Assembly: GCF_033097485.1 (NCBI RefSeq)
Contig: NZ_AP028634.1
Coordinates: forward strand, 1,107,126-1,171,125
Origin: Pyrofollis japonicus
Lineage (GTDB): Archaea; Thermoproteota; Thermoprotei_A; Sulfolobales; Pyrodictiaceae
Direction: 5' to 3'
DNA length: 64,000 nucleotides
The notes below the pieces were generated by a model that had not been told where the DNA came from, did not search any database, and saw only the letters and a program-made list of their open reading frames with translations. Each line of letters starts with the position of its first letter. Position 1 is the first letter of the stretch. Position numbers and translations under genes: made by a program. Of the stretch, positions 44,902 through 56,841 are shown in pieces.

Positions 44902-45706
44902 GCTGGCCACCGGTGGCTTCGAGTAATCCCAGGCCATTGCCTCTCCGAGTATGCGCTATGATAGCGACGGGCCGTGGGGATGCGTCCGCGTACTCTAGGG
45001 CCTCTAGGAGCATCTCGTAGCTATGGCCGTCAACCTCTAGGACTTGCCACCCTAGGCTCTGAAACCTATCGGCAAGGCTGCCCTTGTTCTTGATCTCGCT
45101 TGTCGCCCCGTCAAGCTGGTATCCATTGTTATCCACTATTGCTACCACGTTGCGTAGGCCGAGATGAGGTATCGTCGCGGCTGCTTCCCATACCTGCCCC
45201 TCATCGAGCTCGCCGTCGCCGAGGACAACGAAGACCTTGTGCTCGTCCTCGGTGCCGTCAAGCCTCATCGCGTATGCTATCCCGGCCGCAATGCTGAGGC
45301 CCTGGCCAAGGCTGCCCGTCGACACATCAACCCCGTCAAGGCTGTTATCCGGATGCCCCTCTAGGCCATCAATGTCACGTATCCCGTCTAGGTCCTCCTC
45401 CGAGAGCTTGCCCAGCTCTACGAGGAGCGCGTAGAGCGCTGGCACGGCATGCCCTTTGCTCAGTATTAGCCAGTCCCTCTGAGTTGGTTTGGATCCTGTC
45501 CGCTGAAGCCCTCTACCGACCAGTATAGCGTTTAGGATATCGAGACTGCTTAGTGAGGAGCCGACATGTATACTCTTCTCCACTGAGGCCATTCGGAGAA
45601 CTCTATCACGTGCGCGGAGCGCTACTGAGTGCAGGAACTGGATTCTGCTCCGCGGGGAGACGAGCCCGCTCCTCTTTACGACTTCTAGCCTCGATACAAT
45701 AGGCAA
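44894..45706 (-). CDS. Transketolase, N-terminal subunit
   Basis: A 270-residue thiamine-diphosphate-binding half of transketolase. Visible motifs are the substrate-loop SKGHAVPALYALLVELG, TGSLGQGLSIAAGIAYAM, and the ThDP motif running from GDGELDEGQVWEAA to VDNNGYQLDG. It is first of a four-gene unit (tktN-tktC-tyrA-pheA) in which three of the four junctions overlap or abut. It is divergent from DAHP synthase, which uses the erythrose-4-phosphate this enzyme can produce. Confidence 0.94.
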   Translation of the reverse strand: MPIVSRLEVVKRSGLVSPRSRIQFLHSVALRARDRVLRMASVEKSIHVGSSLSSLDILNAILVGRGLQRTGSKPTQRDWLILSKGHAVPALYALLVELGKLSEEDLDGIRDIDGLEGHPDNSLDGVDVSTGSLGQGLSIAAGIAYAMRLDGTEDEHKVFVVLGDGELDEGQVWEAAATIPHLGLRNVVAIVDNNGYQLDGATSEIKNKGSLADRFQSLGWQVLEVDGHSYEMLLEALEYADASPRPVAIIAHTRRGNGLGLLEATGGQHV

Positions 45707-50419: not shown

Positions 50420-51097
50420 TTAGACGAGCACGACTACCCCTACCAGTATCAGTAATATGCCGGCCACTGCGCTCAGCTCGGCCGAGTACCTGGCAACAGC
50501 TTCTTGCACCTTCCTTACCCGATACGCAGCCGTTATGGAGACACCTATCACGAGGAGAGGGGCGACGAACACAAGGTTGTAGATGAGCAGGTATGGTAGT
50601 AGCTCTGTGATCGATGTAGCGCTGCTTGCCCGGGCTAGCGTGATGAATGCGAGGAGGGGCCCGCTACTACATGGCAAGAGCGTGAAGGAGGCCAGGAAGC
50701 CTAGAAGCCCCGCGGCCAGGATGCTCCAAGCTGCTCGTAGGGCGTGCTTTGAGAGCTTTCCCCCAGGTCTTGCAAGGGGCAGTGCCTTTCCGTGTCTCTC
50801 AGCGACCGCCTCTGCAAGGGTATAGGAGCCGAAAGCCATCGCCACGACTCCCAGGAGCCATATAGGCAGAGTTGTCGAGGCAAAGGCTATTCCGAGGGCA
50901 ACCAGGAGGTAACCTATGTAAACGGCTGCCGTGAAAGCCAGGGCGGTAGCCATTACCCTTTTCGGACTCTTCGTGCGAATAGAGGTTGCGAGCAAGAGCA
51001 CAGCATACACGTAGAAAGTACACGGATTGATGCTGTCAAGCGCGGCGAACCCGACAAGCTCGCCGAGAAGCCTAGTATGGAGCACTTTTGTAGTCAA
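50420..51097 (-). CDS. CcdA/DsbD-type thiol-electron transporter
   Basis: A 225-residue membrane protein with six helices of the CcdA/DsbD-beta type, which passes electrons from cytoplasmic thioredoxin to extracytoplasmic thiol proteins. The two redox cysteines are C26 in SINPCTFYVY and C143 in TLLPCSSGPLLAF. The two three-helix halves are pseudo-symmetric, split by a loop at about residues 100-118. It lies 34 bases downstream of an anchored thioredoxin-like protein, the likely electron acceptor. Confidence 0.88.
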   Translation of the reverse strand: MTTKVLHTRLLGELVGFAALDSINPCTFYVYAVLLLATSIRTKSPKRVMATALAFTAAVYIGYLLVALGIAFASTTLPIWLLGVVAMAFGSYTLAEAVAERHGKALPLARPGGKLSKHALRAAWSILAAGLLGFLASFTLLPCSSGPLLAFITLARASSATSITELLPYLLIYNLVFVAPLLVIGVSITAAYRVRKVQEAVARYSAELSAVAGILLILVGVVVLV

Positions 51098-51131
51098 ACC
51101 CCCATGCTCGGTGATTAATGTTATCCCGTAA

Positions 51132-51740
51132 CTAGCCCGGGCTAATCAGCTCTGAAGCGTTGATTGTGGCTGTACAGAGTACTTGGTAAAGCTCCTTCGA
51201 GGCATCTATCTCGCCATACTTGTCTCCAGCCAGGTAGACGTGAATCTTGCCCTCCATTCTTGGCTCACTGCTTAGGAGCGCCTCGTTCCACCACTCGGTG
51301 CTTCTGAGCTCCCCGACTTCTACGAAGAGGATCCCGTCCTTGCTGCAAGCAACTATTGTCGGGACTCCCTGTGTTGCCTTGAGCTTGTAGAGAGCCCAGA
51401 AGGCTTCTGCACAACCACTGTTAAGGACGGAGCAGAAGTAAGACCTTATACCTGTCCTCGAGGAGTACCTCTCAAAGAATTCCTCCATTGCCTTGCAATG
51501 AGGGCATCTCGGATCACCTATTTCCACTATGAATACGTTCCTGTGCTCAATTGTAGTAGTCGGGTTCTGCTGAGCATTAGTAGTACTAGTTGTTTGGCTA
51601 CTCGTTCTGGGCGCTTCGGCGGAACTGGCAGTGCTACTAGTATTGTCTCCGATATGTAGGCCTAGGCCCAGGACTAGTGCAGCCACGACTACAATACTGA
51701 TTAGTAAGACTAGGAGCGGATACTGGCTTCTCACCTTCAC
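51132..51740 (-). CDS. Membrane-anchored thioredoxin-like protein
   Basis: A 202-residue extracytoplasmic protein. An N-terminal helix (LLVLLISIVVVAALVLGLGL) anchors it, a Ser/Thr-rich linker of about 35 residues follows, then a thioredoxin fold with active site CPHC at C79 and C82. Two further cysteines (YFCSVLNSGCAEAFW) form a second possible disulfide, and GVPTIV holds the cis-proline. GTG start with AAGGTGAT upstream. Position next to the CcdA-like gene suggests an extracellular thiol-disulfide role. Confidence 0.86.
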   Translation of the reverse strand: MKVRSQYPLLVLLISIVVVAALVLGLGLHIGDNTSSTASSAEAPRTSSQTTSTTNAQQNPTTTIEHRNVFIVEIGDPRCPHCKAMEEFFERYSSRTGIRSYFCSVLNSGCAEAFWALYKLKATQGVPTIVACSKDGILFVEVGELRSTEWWNEALLSSEPRMEGKIHVYLAGDKYGEIDASKELYQVLCTATINASELISPG

Positions 51741-51743
51741 GAA

Positions 51744-51977
51744 TCACCTTTTCTCCAGGACAGCGTAGTACGCGTTGCTCTCTTCTCCGCGCTCTATAAC
51801 CTTTGCCGCGTTGCTCTTCTCTATACTAGAGATAGTTTCGTCTAATACCTCCTTTGCAGACTTGGCGACAATTACTTTCAGTTTCTCACCGCTCTCCAGC
51901 TTGTCTAGCTCAGCTAGCACGTACAGCGTATAGTCGCCACACGCTGATGCTATTTTTCTAAGATCAAACACCTTCAC
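51744..51977 (-). CDS. TusA-like small protein
   Basis: A 77-residue protein with the layout of TusA/SirA sulfur carriers: VKVFDLRKIASACGDYTLYV, where C13 stands near the expected persulfide cysteine, then ELDKLESGEKLKVIVAKSAK, and a C-terminal strand SNAYYAVLEKR. The usual C-P-x-P motif is replaced by CGDY, so sulfur transfer is uncertain. The GTG start has GGGGAT five bases upstream. It precedes the thioredoxin-like gene by three bases, so both are surely in one operon. Confidence 0.65.
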   Translation of the reverse strand: MKVFDLRKIASACGDYTLYVLAELDKLESGEKLKVIVAKSAKEVLDETISSIEKSNAAKVIERGEESNAYYAVLEKR

Positions 51978-52086
51978 GCGTAATCCCCGGATGATAAGGT
52001 TGCTAAGGATTGTTAAAAAGATTTCCCAGCTTGTGCAAAAATAGAGATAAAATGATATCACTGCTTCATTCTACTAGCCGAGGCGC

Positions 52087-52722
52087 TTATTTATCCCAGA
52101 TAGAAGCTGCTTCATCGACGCTCTTCGGTTCTTTAACGATAACTTTGCCCCTAGTAGTGATGAAGGCTGGTACACGGCTGCTCGGGATACCATAGCCTTG
52201 CACAATTGCGGCCTCCGCGTTCACGCTCCAAAGCTCCGTATCCGGGCAATGAGCAACAACTTGGATACTATAGTATAGTGCCCTCGTACACGGCAGTCCG
52301 GAGACGACATAGAGGGCTAGGCGGCCACTTGGACATCTAGACGGCTTCTCGCCCTCCCATGCGCCTCCGGCCAGCGCTATCGAAAGATAAAAGGGCATGA
52401 GGAGTACGTCGGCGGGGATACCGTAGTACACTAGTCTGCCCTGTAGCCGCCCGCCTACGCGTATAGCGGGCTCTGGTAATTGCTCCCCCCACTTGTCAAG
52501 CTCAAGACGCTTCAGAACAACCTTTTCGTAGACCCCGAGCCTTCGCTTAACGTATTCGTAGCCCTCCTCGGAGAAAGGTGATAAGGGAACAACCTCTACG
52601 TCAACCTCTACGGGCTCAACAAGCTTCTCTAGGAAATCTCTCGCCTCGCTCAAAGAAGGCAAGCCGGATACAGCCAGCAAAGAGTCTAACATAGCTTCTT
52701 TCAAAAACTTCGCATCGTACAA
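52087..52722 (-). CDS. PDO-like protein with a single-cysteine active site
   Basis: A 211-residue protein that resembles archaeal protein disulfide oxidoreductases, which have two tandem thioredoxin folds. The second fold is recognisable (LALYVVSGLPCTRALYYSIQ, then AAIVQGYGIPSSRVPAFITT with the cis-proline). Its active site is PCTRA, with C145 but no second cysteine; C130 and C159 are nearby. The first fold lacks a CxxC altogether. It could use a monothiol mechanism or be structural. It is first in the TusA-like/Trx-like/CcdA gene series, 109 bases upstream. TTG start. Confidence 0.6.
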   Translation of the reverse strand: MYDAKFLKEAMLDSLLAVSGLPSLSEARDFLEKLVEPVEVDVEVVPLSPFSEEGYEYVKRRLGVYEKVVLKRLELDKWGEQLPEPAIRVGGRLQGRLVYYGIPADVLLMPFYLSIALAGGAWEGEKPSRCPSGRLALYVVSGLPCTRALYYSIQVVAHCPDTELWSVNAEAAIVQGYGIPSSRVPAFITTRGKVIVKEPKSVDEAASIWDK

Positions 52723-52749
52723 TACTATCCCTAGTAATGAGTAAAAACA

Positions 52750-52996
52750 GTGAGCCCGGTACTAAAAACTGAGCCGTACATCTACGAAGAAGGCTCGCAT
52801 ATAGCTCTGCACCTTGGTCAGAAGACGAGCGTTACACGGTACAAGGGAATGAAGTATATGGGTAACAGTGTGCGGGCACCCAAAGGGGCCGCGGCTCATC
52901 CAGGCCGCCGTGGAACCAGCGGCTGTCTACCGCGGCACCCCGGTAATAGAATCTTGGACTAGGATTCGCGCTGGAATAAGGATAACGCTCGGCTAG
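52750..52996 (+). pseudogene. Small unidentified gene broken by a frameshift
   Basis: A GTG start opens LKTEPYIYEEGSHIALHLGQ and TSVTRYKGMKYMGNSVRAPK. The frame then decays, while one base out of phase it continues GPRLIQAAVEPAAVYRGTPV and IESWTRIRAGIRITLG to a TAG. Removing one G from the GGGG run at 52885-52888 joins the two into a coherent 81-residue protein. I do not recognise the family. Its stop overlaps the convergent aldo/keto reductase stop by four bases, as intact genes often do. Either a recent pseudogene or a sequencing error. Confidence 0.5.
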
Positions 52997-53964
52997 CTCA
53001 TCGATGCTCCGGGGCTCCTGCCCTTCTCGTATATCTGTCGCAGCTTCTCCACCTCTTCCTTGCTCAGCAACGGCGCCTCCGAGGCCTCTACGAGCTCTCT
53101 TAGCTTCTCCTTGGTCCTTGCCGCGACCTCTATCGTGTCTACCGGTATGCTTGAGTATATGAATCGTAGCGCGAGCTGCGCGGGCGTATTAGCCTCGAGG
53201 AGTGTGGCAAGCTCCTCTCTCAGAGTCTTCTCCATGAACTTGTAGAGTACGAGTGCGCTACGATACCAGCCTCTCATCCTCTTGCCGCCAGCATAGTACG
53301 GCTCCATGTTCTCCCAGCTACTCGGAGTCTCCCCCAGCATCAGGCCGCCAGCATGAGGCATCGCGACTATTATGCCGCGGCCCTTCTCCCTCGCCTCCCT
53401 AGCTATGGTCGCTCCGGGCTCCTGCTCCAAGACATTGTAGACGAAGCGCAGAGCCTCAACCTCATCGTGGCGAAGAGCCTCTCTAGCAGCTAGCAGGGCG
53501 TCCGGGTCCTGGCTTATCGAGACAGCTAGGTGACTTGCAAGCTCGTCCTCCACGAGGCCCCGCATAGCCTCGTAGAGCGCCCTGTTGCGGAGAACCTCGA
53601 GGCCCGGGTCATGGATTATAGCTAAATCTACAGGGCATTTTCCTAGAGCCTCACATGCCTCCTCTAGGCTGCTGGTTAGGAATTCTGGCTCGAAGCTCTG
53701 TCCTCCCCCGCGCTTATAGCCCACAAGCACACCTACTACTGCTTCCTCGATGTCCTCGCCGAGCCCGCGGCGAAGCGCCTCTAGCGCCTCCATGCCGTAC
53801 ACTGGCGCCGTGATGTAGAAGTTTATGCCTAGGCTCCACGCCTCTTTGACGAGCTCTGCGAGGTCCCGGCGAGAGAGCCCCTCGTAGGGACCGTGTACAC
53901 CGTAAACAGCGTACGCGATGGCCGATACTTTTAGCCCGGTTCTCCCGAGCACATTGTACTTCAC
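52993..53964 (-). CDS. Aldo/keto reductase family protein lacking the catalytic Asp
   Basis: A 323-residue TIM-barrel protein of the aldo/keto reductase superfamily, normally NADPH-dependent carbonyl reductases. It starts with the typical YNVLGRTGLKVSAIAYAVYG. The family D-T-A-x-x-Y-G motif reads ITAPVYG, so the catalytic aspartate is I51, while the tyrosine (Y56), a lysine (K84) and a histidine (H118, in LAIIHDPG) remain. The NADP-binding C-terminus is present (VDTIEVAARTKEKLRELVEA). GTG start with GGTG eight bases upstream; a longer start would add 17 residues. It may be catalytically altered or non-enzymatic. Confidence 0.85.
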   Translation of the reverse strand: MKYNVLGRTGLKVSAIAYAVYGVHGPYEGLSRRDLAELVKEAWSLGINFYITAPVYGMEALEALRRGLGEDIEEAVVGVLVGYKRGGGQSFEPEFLTSSLEEACEALGKCPVDLAIIHDPGLEVLRNRALYEAMRGLVEDELASHLAVSISQDPDALLAAREALRHDEVEALRFVYNVLEQEPGATIAREAREKGRGIIVAMPHAGGLMLGETPSSWENMEPYYAGGKRMRGWYRSALVLYKFMEKTLREELATLLEANTPAQLALRFIYSSIPVDTIEVAARTKEKLRELVEASEAPLLSKEEVEKLRQIYEKGRSPGASMS

Positions 53965-54150
53965 GATACGCGCACCTCTCAGAAAAGACCTTATTGTATG
54001 CATCTTATTAAACATGTTCTTTTAGTTCCTATTTTATCAAACAAAATACTTACCTAATTATATGCTAGCTAGTACGTGCTGCTGTCTCGCCTACACAATC
54101 CTATATAGGAGGATGTAAGGATTCCATGCCGGCGCATAGGAGAAGGAGAA

Positions 54151-55320
54151 GTGGCTAGTCAAGCAGGGGGCGAAAAGCGGGATCTGTGGCTACTAGTTAT
54201 TGCTACCTACATGTTCTTCTCCGGAATGATGTCGATAACCTCTATCGTCGCCAGGTATGCAAGGTTCCTAGGAGTGAGCATAGCCAGCACAGGGATAATC
54301 TTCTCACTGGCGTCATTGTCGGCCGCGGTTCTCCGCATCCCGGTTGGTGTTGCAGCCGACCGCATCGGCCCCAGGCCCTTCATGGCGCTCGGAGGGTTAT
54401 CGCTGGCACTCGCCGGCCTCGTAGCCATGGTGAGCGAGAGCGGCCTAGGACTAGGCATAACGAGGATAATGCAGGGCGTCGGCCTAGCACTCTTCGTTGC
54501 ACCGAGCATCTACGTTGCGAGCATGGTGCGAGGAGTAAGCGTTAACACCGCCGTCTCGCTACGTAGTGCAGCTATATCGACTGCCTCGGCAACAGCGCCC
54601 TTCATAGCGGGCCTCATAGTCGATAAAGCCGGCTACGGAGCTGCCTTCGCCTACGCTGTACTAAACTCAATAGGAGCTGCGGCTGCTTCATCACTCATCA
54701 AAGCCGGAGCGCCCCCGGCAAGAGCTGGGAAGCCGAGACTAGGAGAGGCTTTCTCAGCCCTACGGAGGATATGGATAATAGCAGTAACACCAATTGTTGA
54801 TGGAGCAGTCTTCCTCGGATTCCAGTCACTGCCGCAGGCAAACCTCAAGGACCTTGGCTACCCTGCCACTGTCTTCGGCACCGCGCTCTCCCTCAGCGGC
54901 GCCACAGGGCTCGTAGCAAGGCTATCAACATCGGCACTAGTGCCGCTGATAGGGTGCATCGCGACGATGCTTATGGGCTACACGCTACTAGTTGGCGCCA
55001 CAGCTGTGCTTCTCGCCTCAGTTCTCCCCCCATGGATATACTTGTCGGGCTCCCTATACGGCGCAGGATTCGGCCTCATAGCGCCCTCGGAACAAGTCCT
55101 CATAGTGTCGAACGTTGAGCCGAGAATAAGGAACACCGTACTCTCAATGTATACCCTCTCCTTCGACATAGGCGGCTTCATAGGCTCAACACTACTAGGA
55201 GCCATAGCTGAGCGAGGAGGCTACGAGGCAGGCTACACCGCTATGTTAGTAATGCAAGCACTATCCCTGGTACTCGTGGCATCATGGAGTATTTCTCGCA
55301 GGAGACTAAGAACGTGTTAG
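54151..55320 (+). CDS. Major facilitator superfamily transporter
   Basis: A 389-residue, 12-helix MFS permease. The loop 2-3 signature VGVAADRIGPRPFMALGG is well conserved, unlike in the other MFS protein in this window, and ITRIMQGVGLALFVAPSIYV resembles helix 4 of drug/proton antiporters. The substrate is unknown; drug or metabolite efflux is one possibility. GTG start with GGAGAAGGAG upstream, and a palindromic TATA (CCTATATAGG) about 40 bases upstream serves as promoter. Confidence 0.86.
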   Translation: MASQAGGEKRDLWLLVIATYMFFSGMMSITSIVARYARFLGVSIASTGIIFSLASLSAAVLRIPVGVAADRIGPRPFMALGGLSLALAGLVAMVSESGLGLGITRIMQGVGLALFVAPSIYVASMVRGVSVNTAVSLRSAAISTASATAPFIAGLIVDKAGYGAAFAYAVLNSIGAAAASSLIKAGAPPARAGKPRLGEAFSALRRIWIIAVTPIVDGAVFLGFQSLPQANLKDLGYPATVFGTALSLSGATGLVARLSTSALVPLIGCIATMLMGYTLLVGATAVLLASVLPPWIYLSGSLYGAGFGLIAPSEQVLIVSNVEPRIRNTVLSMYTLSFDIGGFIGSTLLGAIAERGGYEAGYTAMLVMQALSLVLVASWSISRRRLRTC

Positions 55321-55636
55321 GCACCGGCCCCTGCCTCTCTATCCCTAGATCAGCGTTCAATGTTCAACCTTGCCCGGGCTTATTAGGGACAAGCCTAGCC
55401 CTTACACATGTCTCCAGTTGTAGGCCGCAAGGAGGCTCTTTGGCAACTTTACTCCTATTAGTAGCGTGACCTTATCCTGTGGTCGTAAAAATCTAGAAAA
55501 CTGTTCACGTTACGAATTATGCGATATAGGTATTTGTACAAATTATTCGTGTTATCCTCGTTTAAAATATGGCATGTTGTATCTAGCCGTCGCCATATAA
55601 GTAGTTTTCTTTAACTGGTGTGAATGGGGAAGAGAT
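55321..55636. other. Gene-free interval with a thioredoxin promoter
   Basis: Between the MFS and thioredoxin genes I see no coding frame or RNA gene. A GCCCGGGC palindrome occurs near 55370. CATATAAG near 55590 fits a TATA box for the thioredoxin gene. Confidence 0.45.
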
Positions 55637-56038
55637 ATGACCGAGGCATATATGCCCTGGCTCCAGGAATACTTGAAGGACATGGGTATAGACGAGATAG
55701 TTGTTAAGACCGCGGAGAACGAGGAAGAACTAGACAAAGCGGTCTGCAGGCACAGCACCACGGTAGTCTTGTTCAGCAGCCCTACGTGTCCAGCATGCGC
55801 CGCCTATAGGCCGATATTCTATACCTATGCATACAAGGCTTTGAAGAAGTATGGCGAGAAGAAAGTAGGGTTCTACGAGGCAGACGTCTACAATATGCTT
55901 GAGAAGGCATGGGAGCTCGGAATATCGGCTACACCGACCACGATAATATTCAAGAAGTGCAAGCCGGTCGACGGCATAATAGGGCTTGTTGACGAGGAGT
56001 ATCTAGCCGAGCTCGTGGAAAAACATTTAGAGAAATAA
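55637..56038 (+). CDS. Thioredoxin
   Basis: A 133-residue cytoplasmic thioredoxin with an N-terminal extension of about 40 residues. The active site is CPAC (C51 and C54) in LFSSPTCPACAAYRPIFYTY; the cis-proline loop is ISATPTTIIF. An extra C37 and a KKCKP cysteine occur outside the active site. It could donate electrons to the CcdA-like protein or reduce peroxiredoxin. The ATG has GGGGAAGAG upstream. It is convergent with the DsbA/thioredoxin-fold hybrid protein. Confidence 0.9.
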   Translation: MTEAYMPWLQEYLKDMGIDEIVVKTAENEEELDKAVCRHSTTVVLFSSPTCPACAAYRPIFYTYAYKALKKYGEKKVGFYEADVYNMLEKAWELGISATPTTIIFKKCKPVDGIIGLVDEEYLAELVEKHLEK

Positions 56039-56070
56039 TAGTCCCCGGCTAGAAGACTGTTTCAGCTCCC

Positions 56071-56841
56071 CTATGCTAGGCCATGCTCGCCTAGTAGCCT
56101 CCAGTACTCCTCATCGTTTAGTATCTCTTCCTGTTCTCTACGGATTTTTGAGAGAAGACCAGCTGCACCCCTTTGCACAAAGCGAGCCATGTCCTCTACT
56201 AGTTCCTTCCTCGGGAAGGGTTTCGAGGGTAACCCGCTCCTACCAATACTTGCCTTGGCAATTAGCCATGCCCCCACATTAGTTGGTGTTGCAAGCTGCT
56301 TCAGCTCCTCCCGCGCCAAGCTGCCTCCGCTGGCCCACCAGTACTCTCTTACAAACGATATGCCAAGTGCACGCATCACCTTATTGCGCCACTCCTCCCA
56401 GAGTTCTTTACCGCGCCTCTTGACCTCGCTGATAACGCTCTTCGGGTTAGCGCCGCTTAAAGGTGCACGGGTAGCAGCAGAGGCAAAGTCCGTGTCTAGG
56501 ACCGGGGCTATATCGTCGTGTAGATATGCCACTGCAGCGGCGTAGGCGCTGTGAAGCACTGTCTCCATGAACGCCTCTACTGGGTCTTTTCCACTAGGCT
56601 TCCAGGAGCCCGTGATTATTGCCTCTGCTTCCTCAGGCTCTACGGGATCGGTCGCCGCTGGTACGCCGTCAACCAGTATCCAGGGGACGCTCCATATATT
56701 TCTCCGAAGCACCTCTGAGCCCGCAGGGTCAGCTGTCGAGGCCAGCTCTACTCTATCTAAGAGGCCTTTCCTAGCGAGATTCTTCACTACATGGTAGCTC
56801 GTCGCACACGTGGGGTGAATATACATGAGTATTCTCGGCAA
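56071..56841 (-). CDS. Protein with N-terminal thioredoxin-like fold and unknown C-terminal domain
   Basis: A 256-residue protein. Residues 1-80 look like a glutaredoxin/thioredoxin fold: RILMYIHPTCATSYHVVKNL with C12 in a C-x-x-S site, and WSVPWILVDGVPAATDPVEP with the cis-proline. The rest is helical (KSVISEVKRRGKELWEEWRN, ALGISFVREYWWASGG, FVQRGAAGLLSKIRREQEEI) and unrecognised, with several tryptophans. The C-x-x-S site suggests mono-thiol chemistry. It may act with the nearby thioredoxin, which is convergent. No signal peptide, so cytoplasmic. Confidence 0.6.
   Translation of the reverse strand: MPRILMYIHPTCATSYHVVKNLARKGLLDRVELASTADPAGSEVLRRNIWSVPWILVDGVPAATDPVEPEEAEAIITGSWKPSGKDPVEAFMETVLHSAYAAAVAYLHDDIAPVLDTDFASAATRAPLSGANPKSVISEVKRRGKELWEEWRNKVMRALGISFVREYWWASGGSLAREELKQLATPTNVGAWLIAKASIGRSGLPSKPFPRKELVEDMARFVQRGAAGLLSKIRREQEEILNDEEYWRLLGEHGLA

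Follow-up and report, generated by a model that had tools for sequence, protein, structure and literature searches.

A stretch of 64,000 nucleotides of the Pyrofollis japonicus genome (the window; forward-strand positions 1107126-1171125) holds four minus-strand genes within 50420-52722 that form a genuine unit, encoding a PDO-like protein, a TusA-like protein, an outside thioredoxin with a CPHC active site and a CcdA-like membrane protein. The chances are about even that this unit carries electrons of cytoplasmic thiols across the membrane to the cell exterior, with the PDO-like/TusA-like pair as part of the route and, in Pyrodictium, a feed from the quinone pool through a DsrK-like and a b-type protein. 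All four genes are co-oriented, with 3 bp between the TusA-like and thioredoxin genes and 34 bp between the thioredoxin and CcdA-like genes. The open reading frame listed for the TusA-like gene begins too early; its homologues start at GTG 51977, and with that start the PDO-like/TusA-like spacing is 109 bp. The order PDO-like, TusA-like, thioredoxin, CcdA occurs in seven genomes from two genera of the Pyrodictiaceae (P. japonicus, G180, G181 and Pyrodictium G174-G177, where G181 is of the same genus as P. japonicus, G174 is Pyrodictium abyssi AV2, G175 is Pyrodictium delaneyi Su06, and the PDO-like gene of G176 is truncated by a contig end). Kept in six other genomes, the order is therefore not due to chance. 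In Pyrodictium, a gene for a membrane protein of 198-210 residues is inserted between the TusA-like and thioredoxin genes. Where CcdA is not nearby, too, the PDO-like and TusA-like genes can be adjacent: they are so in G056 and in Pyrolobus fumarii (G182), where the TusA-like copy is a divergent one.

Within the CcdA-like protein, the segments D21-S-I-N-P-C26 and T-L-L-P-C143-S are invariant in all nine aligned sequences, with one Cys per Pro-Cys motif. The top PDB profile match is CcdA (5vkv), weak at E 0.11; there was no Pfam match to the window protein, and SfLAP fell under its cut-off in relatives. The CPHC of the outside thioredoxin is invariant (8/8), with weak matches to thioredoxin families; C103, C110, C132 and C189 are likewise invariant (8/8) and could represent structural disulfides or a second redox pair. 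CcdA-like proteins were matched in 96 of 229 genomes of the class, the set to which all counts over 229 refer. Across 63 loci drawn at the DNA level from these 96 genomes (mostly the better matches, with the window locus excluded), an outside CxxC thioredoxin is fused ahead of CcdA in 32 and has a gene of its own no more than 3 kb away in 15 (eight on the same strand, seven on the opposite strand), while by this test 16 loci, several of them at contig ends, have no outside thioredoxin near CcdA. With an outside thioredoxin accompanying CcdA in 47/63 loci of relatives, the pairing is therefore commonplace in these archaea.

The TusA-like protein is predicted to fold as beta-alpha-beta-alpha-beta-beta (AlphaFold2 model, predicted local distance difference test (pLDDT) 90.6), and ranks 1-3 of a fold search are taken by YeeD (Z 10.1-10.6) and TusA (Z 9.7), at a root-mean-square deviation of 1.8-2.2 over 72 residues. 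Because Alba-fold chains tie at Z 9.0-9.6, kinship with TusA is unproven by fold alone. Residues D5, C13, G14 and D15 are invariant in the 13 aligned proteins, in all of which CGD replaces CPxP, the TusA motif, and the PF01206 score (15.3 bits) is under the gathering score of 28.6. A separate, CPEP-type TusA is encoded by P. japonicus (genome positions 45052-45258); it aligns with the TusA-like protein at hhalign E 1e-4, with a probability of only 56, and in both the conserved Gly was counted 17 residues from the Cys. This alignment and the shared spacing support the putative TusA kinship. A wider TusA-like profile matched 20 of 359 genomes across the phylum, with strong matches (E 8e-21 or better) limited to the Pyrodictiaceae and G118/G119 and the remainder weak, at about 1e-7 to 1e-3. 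In a TusA-like tree only a three-member genus clade was well supported, too little to tell whether the TusA-like protein of the window descends from the DsrK-linked kind. A second subtype with CGG for CGD occurs in six genomes, five of family f2 and one of f3 (L109:7455-7691, L110:7506-7730, L118:6689-6961, L121:422-667, L122:6227-6436 and L123:6563-6811), with no DsrK-like neighbour in the stretches read.

For the PDO-like protein, the model predicts tandem thioredoxin folds, and a fold search returned AhpF N-domains, Sso1120 and PDOs at Z 12.2-14.5 over 142-173 residues, the next match having Z 5.9. Across the 13 diverse members aligned, G142, P144 and C145 never vary, nor does P185, the thioredoxin-type proline; no member keeps a CxxC, and the lone invariant Cys lies within PG[L/R/V]PC. 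By sequence, the PDO-like and TusA-like alignments matched no PDO or TusA in the PDB, whereas the fold searches matched both. The PDO-like gene is present in 19/229 genomes, with three loci in a named-genome scan using the PDO-like alignment, and the proteins of the two genera are 37-41% identical. Single-Cys PDO-like proteins also occur at L103:6832-7470, L107:6917-7552 and L102:3270-3908, in genomes without Ccm or DsrK-like matches, where they have a neighbourhood of other genes in common.

In Pyrodictium, the gene divergent from the PDO-like gene encodes a DsrK-like protein that has a CCG domain in addition to two 4Fe-4S motifs. DsrK-like genes (E<=1e-40) were found in 10/229 genomes, eight of which have a TusA-like gene as a divergent neighbour (G174, G175, G177, G181, G182, G189, G190 and, in another family, G056); the contigs of G187 and G020 stop at the expected TusA-like site, so the TusA-like gene was found at all eight testable loci. 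The two genes are direct neighbours or, in Pyrodictium, G056 and G189, have a PDO-like or membrane-protein gene between them. A membrane protein belongs to eight of the ten DsrK-like clusters (G174, G175, G177, G182, G189, G056, G181 and G020), while the contigs of G190 and G187 end too early. Fourteen cysteine columns are invariant in all ten DsrK-like proteins, which keep both 4Fe-4S motifs and the cysteines of the CCG domain, and the CCG spacing pattern is matched in nine. All nine membrane partners (eight clusters plus G176) carry H-x9-H, the spacing of haem histidines as in NarI; the Pyrodictium partner is a predicted di-heme b-type protein. No informative NCBIfam family matched the membrane partners, and HmcF, DsrK and TmcB are among the top NCBIfam matches of four DsrK-like proteins, at 35-91 bits against a DsrK cut-off of 400. 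The features of both proteins fit the description of DsrMK in PMC10504309, where two 4Fe-4S sites are given for DsrK, a CCG protein, and DsrM is divergent save for its haem histidines.

The separate DsrK-like/TusA-like locus of G181 also has a gene for a CPAC thioredoxin-like protein, placed between the DsrK-like and b-type genes; this protein (L108:8999-9517) and one from G186 (L137:12030-12581) have an extra LCEWF...C stretch in common. In G189, a membrane protein with one CVKCH haem-c motif (L065:5355-6695) adjoins the TusA-like gene and a thioredoxin-CcdA fusion.

Under the proposed electron route, cytoplasmic thiols would reduce the CcdA-like carrier and this, in turn, the CPHC thioredoxin anchored at the outer face; the thioredoxin would then reduce outside disulfides or similar sulfur bonds. 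Having one conserved Cys in each of two proteins suggests either a mixed disulfide that links the two or the transfer of a persulfide; it is proposed that the PDO-like and TusA-like proteins pair up, on the cytoplasmic side, to shuttle electrons or to resolve a mixed disulfide. In Pyrodictium, the DsrK-like iron-sulfur protein and the putative di-heme b-type membrane protein would reduce the pair from the quinone pool, while in P. japonicus another donor would have to re-reduce it, such as the canonical PDO encoded in the genome or the neighbouring CPAC thioredoxin. A route from cytoplasm to outside had been suggested for this locus in the original prediction; the conserved CcdA/outside-thioredoxin pair and its linkage to the PDO-like and TusA-like genes in two genera support it, and the direction of flow is one we infer. 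DsrK/HdrD-type enzymes act on mixed disulfide or persulfide-type bonds, which is the ground for a more specific version that we consider unlikely, in which the complex is of the quinol-linked DsrMK/HdrDE type with a protein heterodisulfide as its carrier: the PDO-like and TusA-like cysteines would join like CoM and CoB of methanogens, and the reduced pair would drive CcdA and the outside thioredoxin. In that version the respiratory chain would power thiol reduction at the cell surface, a possibility also suggested by the place of these genes, in close relatives, beside a membrane enzyme resembling one of sulfate respiration. The upkeep of surface thiols in archaea without an outer membrane, and its electron source, have been little studied; a locus that combines CcdA with a TusA-like carrier and a DsrMK-like complex points to a possible path for electrons between the quinone pool and the cell surface, and may add a carrier protein of a new kind to the large family of heterodisulfide-reductase-like enzymes.

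A number of observations weigh against the proposed route. The locus of G186 holds just the PDO-like gene and a thioredoxin, in a genome without any CcdA match. Co-occurrence counts in favour of the route instead, with a PDO-like gene in 12/13 genomes that have a CGD TusA-like protein versus 19/229 overall (p 2e-14, six CGG-type genomes, G016, G017, G019, G020, G021 and G054, being omitted) and a TusA-like gene in 8/10 genomes that have a DsrK-like gene (p 3e-10), but these p-values are overstated because the genomes are related; weight is put on adjacency in separate lineages. The P. japonicus genome lacks a DsrK-like gene at E<=1e-40, its sole hit being a weak ferredoxin-type match of 95 residues, and has no match to the b-type gene; the quinone link therefore probably fails there. 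The 109-bp gap contains a TATA-like stretch, and A/T-rich TATA-like stretches were seen by eye in the same gap of five relatives (weakest in L037), so two transcripts may exist and the PDO-like gene may be transcribed separately from the other three. The CcdA identity is backed less by profile scores than by motifs and neighbours, and the PDO-like model is of moderate quality (pLDDT 75, with one of five models above 50). For a donor, moreover, a single Cys is not enough to reduce a disulfide and then dissociate.

Rather than electrons, the unit could handle sulfur, and the original prediction had also pointed to a sulfur-transfer path on account of the TusA-like member. In such a route, the outside thioredoxin and CcdA would handle sulfane sulfur or polysulfide, the TusA-like Cys would bear a persulfide within the cell, and this would in relatives be reduced or oxidised by the DsrK-like/b-type complex, in the way that DsrMK acts on DsrC. 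The invariant Cys (13/13) keeps this suggestion alive, as do the fold-search matches to TusA and YeeD, the latter a member of the thiosulfate-uptake pair, the DsrK, HmcF and TmcB matches of the DsrK-like proteins, and TusA adjoining heterodisulfide-reductase-like genes in Metallosphaera (PMC4175335). However, the TusA-like protein lacks CPxP, P. japonicus has a separate CPEP-type TusA, and family searches of part of the neighbouring genes turned up no DsrE, rhodanese or sulfur reductase beside the unit. Additionally, the fullest cluster is that of Pyrodictium, including Pyrodictium delaneyi Su06, which according to PMC5556600 can use neither sulfur nor thiosulfate; the paper argues that Su06 may nevertheless be capable of sulfite reduction, for which it notes genes. 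Sulfur transfer is a serious rival to the electron route, if a rather improbable one. It is far less probable again that the genes are mere neighbours with no joint function. Parts of the unit do occur apart, the PDO-like/TusA-like pair away from CcdA in G182 and G056 and CcdA fusions without either in most loci, but the order is held between genera whose PDO-like proteins have diverged as far as noted above, and gaps are short in the TusA-like/thioredoxin/CcdA part.

As a client, c-type cytochrome maturation was also considered, in which the outside thioredoxin would keep the haem-binding CxxCH reduced. The divergent TusA-like, PDO-like and CcmF genes lie in succession in G182, and in G183 the PDO-like gene is followed by CcmF; Ccm-positive genomes make up 11/13 of those with a CGD TusA-like protein versus 47/229 overall (p 5e-7; the list omits G074, which is under the family cut-off) and 9/10 of those with a DsrK-like gene. 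Further, PMC5556600 proposes a CcdA-superfamily protein of Pyrodictium delaneyi as a CcmH substitute. By gene order, however, that protein is the thioredoxin/haem/CcdA fusion of the Ccm cluster itself, which P. japonicus also has and which was matched in 9/9 genomes searched, P. japonicus included. The unit CcdA is not enriched with Ccm (16/96 CcdA-positive versus 31/133 CcdA-negative genomes are Ccm-positive, p 0.92), and PDO-like genes are also present in G107 and G222-G225, where no Ccm family matched. The linkage in G182 (with a TusA-like gene) and G183 counts as genuine evidence of a connection and runs via the PDO-like gene and not CcdA; in P. japonicus the Ccm matches are ~0.6 Mb off. 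Given the separate fusion, the unit CcdA is not favoured as the CcdA of cytochrome c maturation, and a role of the unit in that process is unlikely. The P. japonicus fusion (L126:9654-11258; G000:C1:554656-556257) has 534 residues, in which an anchored thioredoxin part with TCPVCK is joined to a haem-c motif, CSACH, and to membrane segments that are CcdA-like and carry Pro-Cys and Gln-Cys motifs. Beside the same Ccm genes lies an 881-residue protein with eight CxxCH motifs (L126:14129-16774); the corresponding Pyrodictium delaneyi cluster is assigned to sulfite reduction in PMC5556600.

Features of the four-gene unit and its neighbours (positions within the window)
Feature	Positions	Strand	Remarks
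CcdA-like membrane thiol-electron carrier, 225 aa	50420..51097	-	SINPC and LLPCS motifs
Outside thioredoxin, N-terminally anchored, CPHC, 202 aa	51132..51740	-	one hydrophobic segment, residues 9-27
TusA-like protein, 77 aa	51744..51977	-	GTG start at 51977; CGD where TusA has CPxP
PDO-like/TusA-like intergenic gap	51978..52086	-	TATA-like CTTTTTAA, judged by eye
PDO-like protein, single invariant Cys, 211 aa	52087..52722	-	fold search and alignment
Aldo/keto reductase	52993..54015	-	PF00248, E 9e-20; upstream neighbour conserved in genus only
CPAC thioredoxin	55637..56038	+	PF00085; neighbour, outside conserved unit
C-A-T-S thioredoxin-like (C-x-x-S) protein	56071..56841	-	neighbour, outside conserved unit

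The six thiol-redox proteins named in the original prediction are all present in the window, though as a single cluster only the PDO-like, TusA-like, CPHC thioredoxin and CcdA-like genes hold together, their order being kept in relatives while the two outer thioredoxin-fold genes are not co-conserved with them. A close homologue of the CPAC thioredoxin is near the unit only in G181 among the loci searched. Homologues of the C-x-x-S protein are widespread (108/229) and, in nine genomes with both genes on one contig that were compared by eye (G042, G043, G091, G096, G097, G174, G175, G177 and G182; more such genomes exist), adjacent to CcdA only in G091; on synteny and distribution, both the CPAC thioredoxin and the C-x-x-S protein were rejected as members. 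The G091 homologue (L069:9096-9920) is convergent with, and adjoins, a thioredoxin-CcdA fusion, the sole such adjacency seen. The second active-site Cys had been described as lost in two components, which is the case for the C-x-x-S protein (C-A-T-S), whereas the remaining Cys of the PDO-like protein, C145, falls between the two canonical positions in the profile alignment. The aldo/keto reductase is near the unit in G180 and G181, was not found in the Pyrodictium loci and probably does not belong to the unit; in the window it lies, together with an MFS transporter gene, in the interval that separates the unit from the CPAC thioredoxin and the C-x-x-S protein.

Compared with known systems, the CcdA-like part resembles CcdA/DsbD in its two Pro-Cys membrane motifs and its outside CxxC thioredoxin, often fused, and differs in a divergent sequence under family cut-offs and in its companions, a single-Cys PDO-like and a TusA-like protein. 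Arsenic operons, in which PMC2963123 describes CcdA together with thioredoxin-like genes, are a different setting. The complex in relatives has two 4Fe-4S motifs, one CCG domain and a b-type partner with haem-type His spacing in common with DsrMK, HmcF and HdrDE; it differs from these in adjoining a TusA-like gene, plus a PDO-like gene in Pyrodictium and G056, and from DsrMK in that its DsrK-like protein is far under the NCBIfam DsrK cut-off, with none at threshold in P. japonicus. In the titles and abstract openings of the literature found, neither the four-gene combination nor a CGD TusA-like or single-Cys PDO-like family is described, and by term the available text of PMC8105010 and PMC13140500 has no mention of thioredoxin, heterodisulfide or TusA, nor that of PMC8105010 of CcdA. 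With PDO and the AhpF N-terminal domain, the PDO-like protein has tandem thioredoxin folds and the conserved thioredoxin-type proline in common, but one invariant Cys in PG[L/R/V]PC instead of a conserved CxxC. The TusA-like protein resembles TusA and YeeD in predicted fold, with Alba-fold chains tying in the fold search, and in its one conserved Cys; it has the 17-residue Cys-Gly spacing of the CPEP-type TusA of P. japonicus, and is set apart by CGD for CPxP, two additional residues ahead of the Cys and a sub-cut-off Pfam score. The parts are of known kinds, and what is unusual is the cytoplasmic PDO-like/TusA-like pair.

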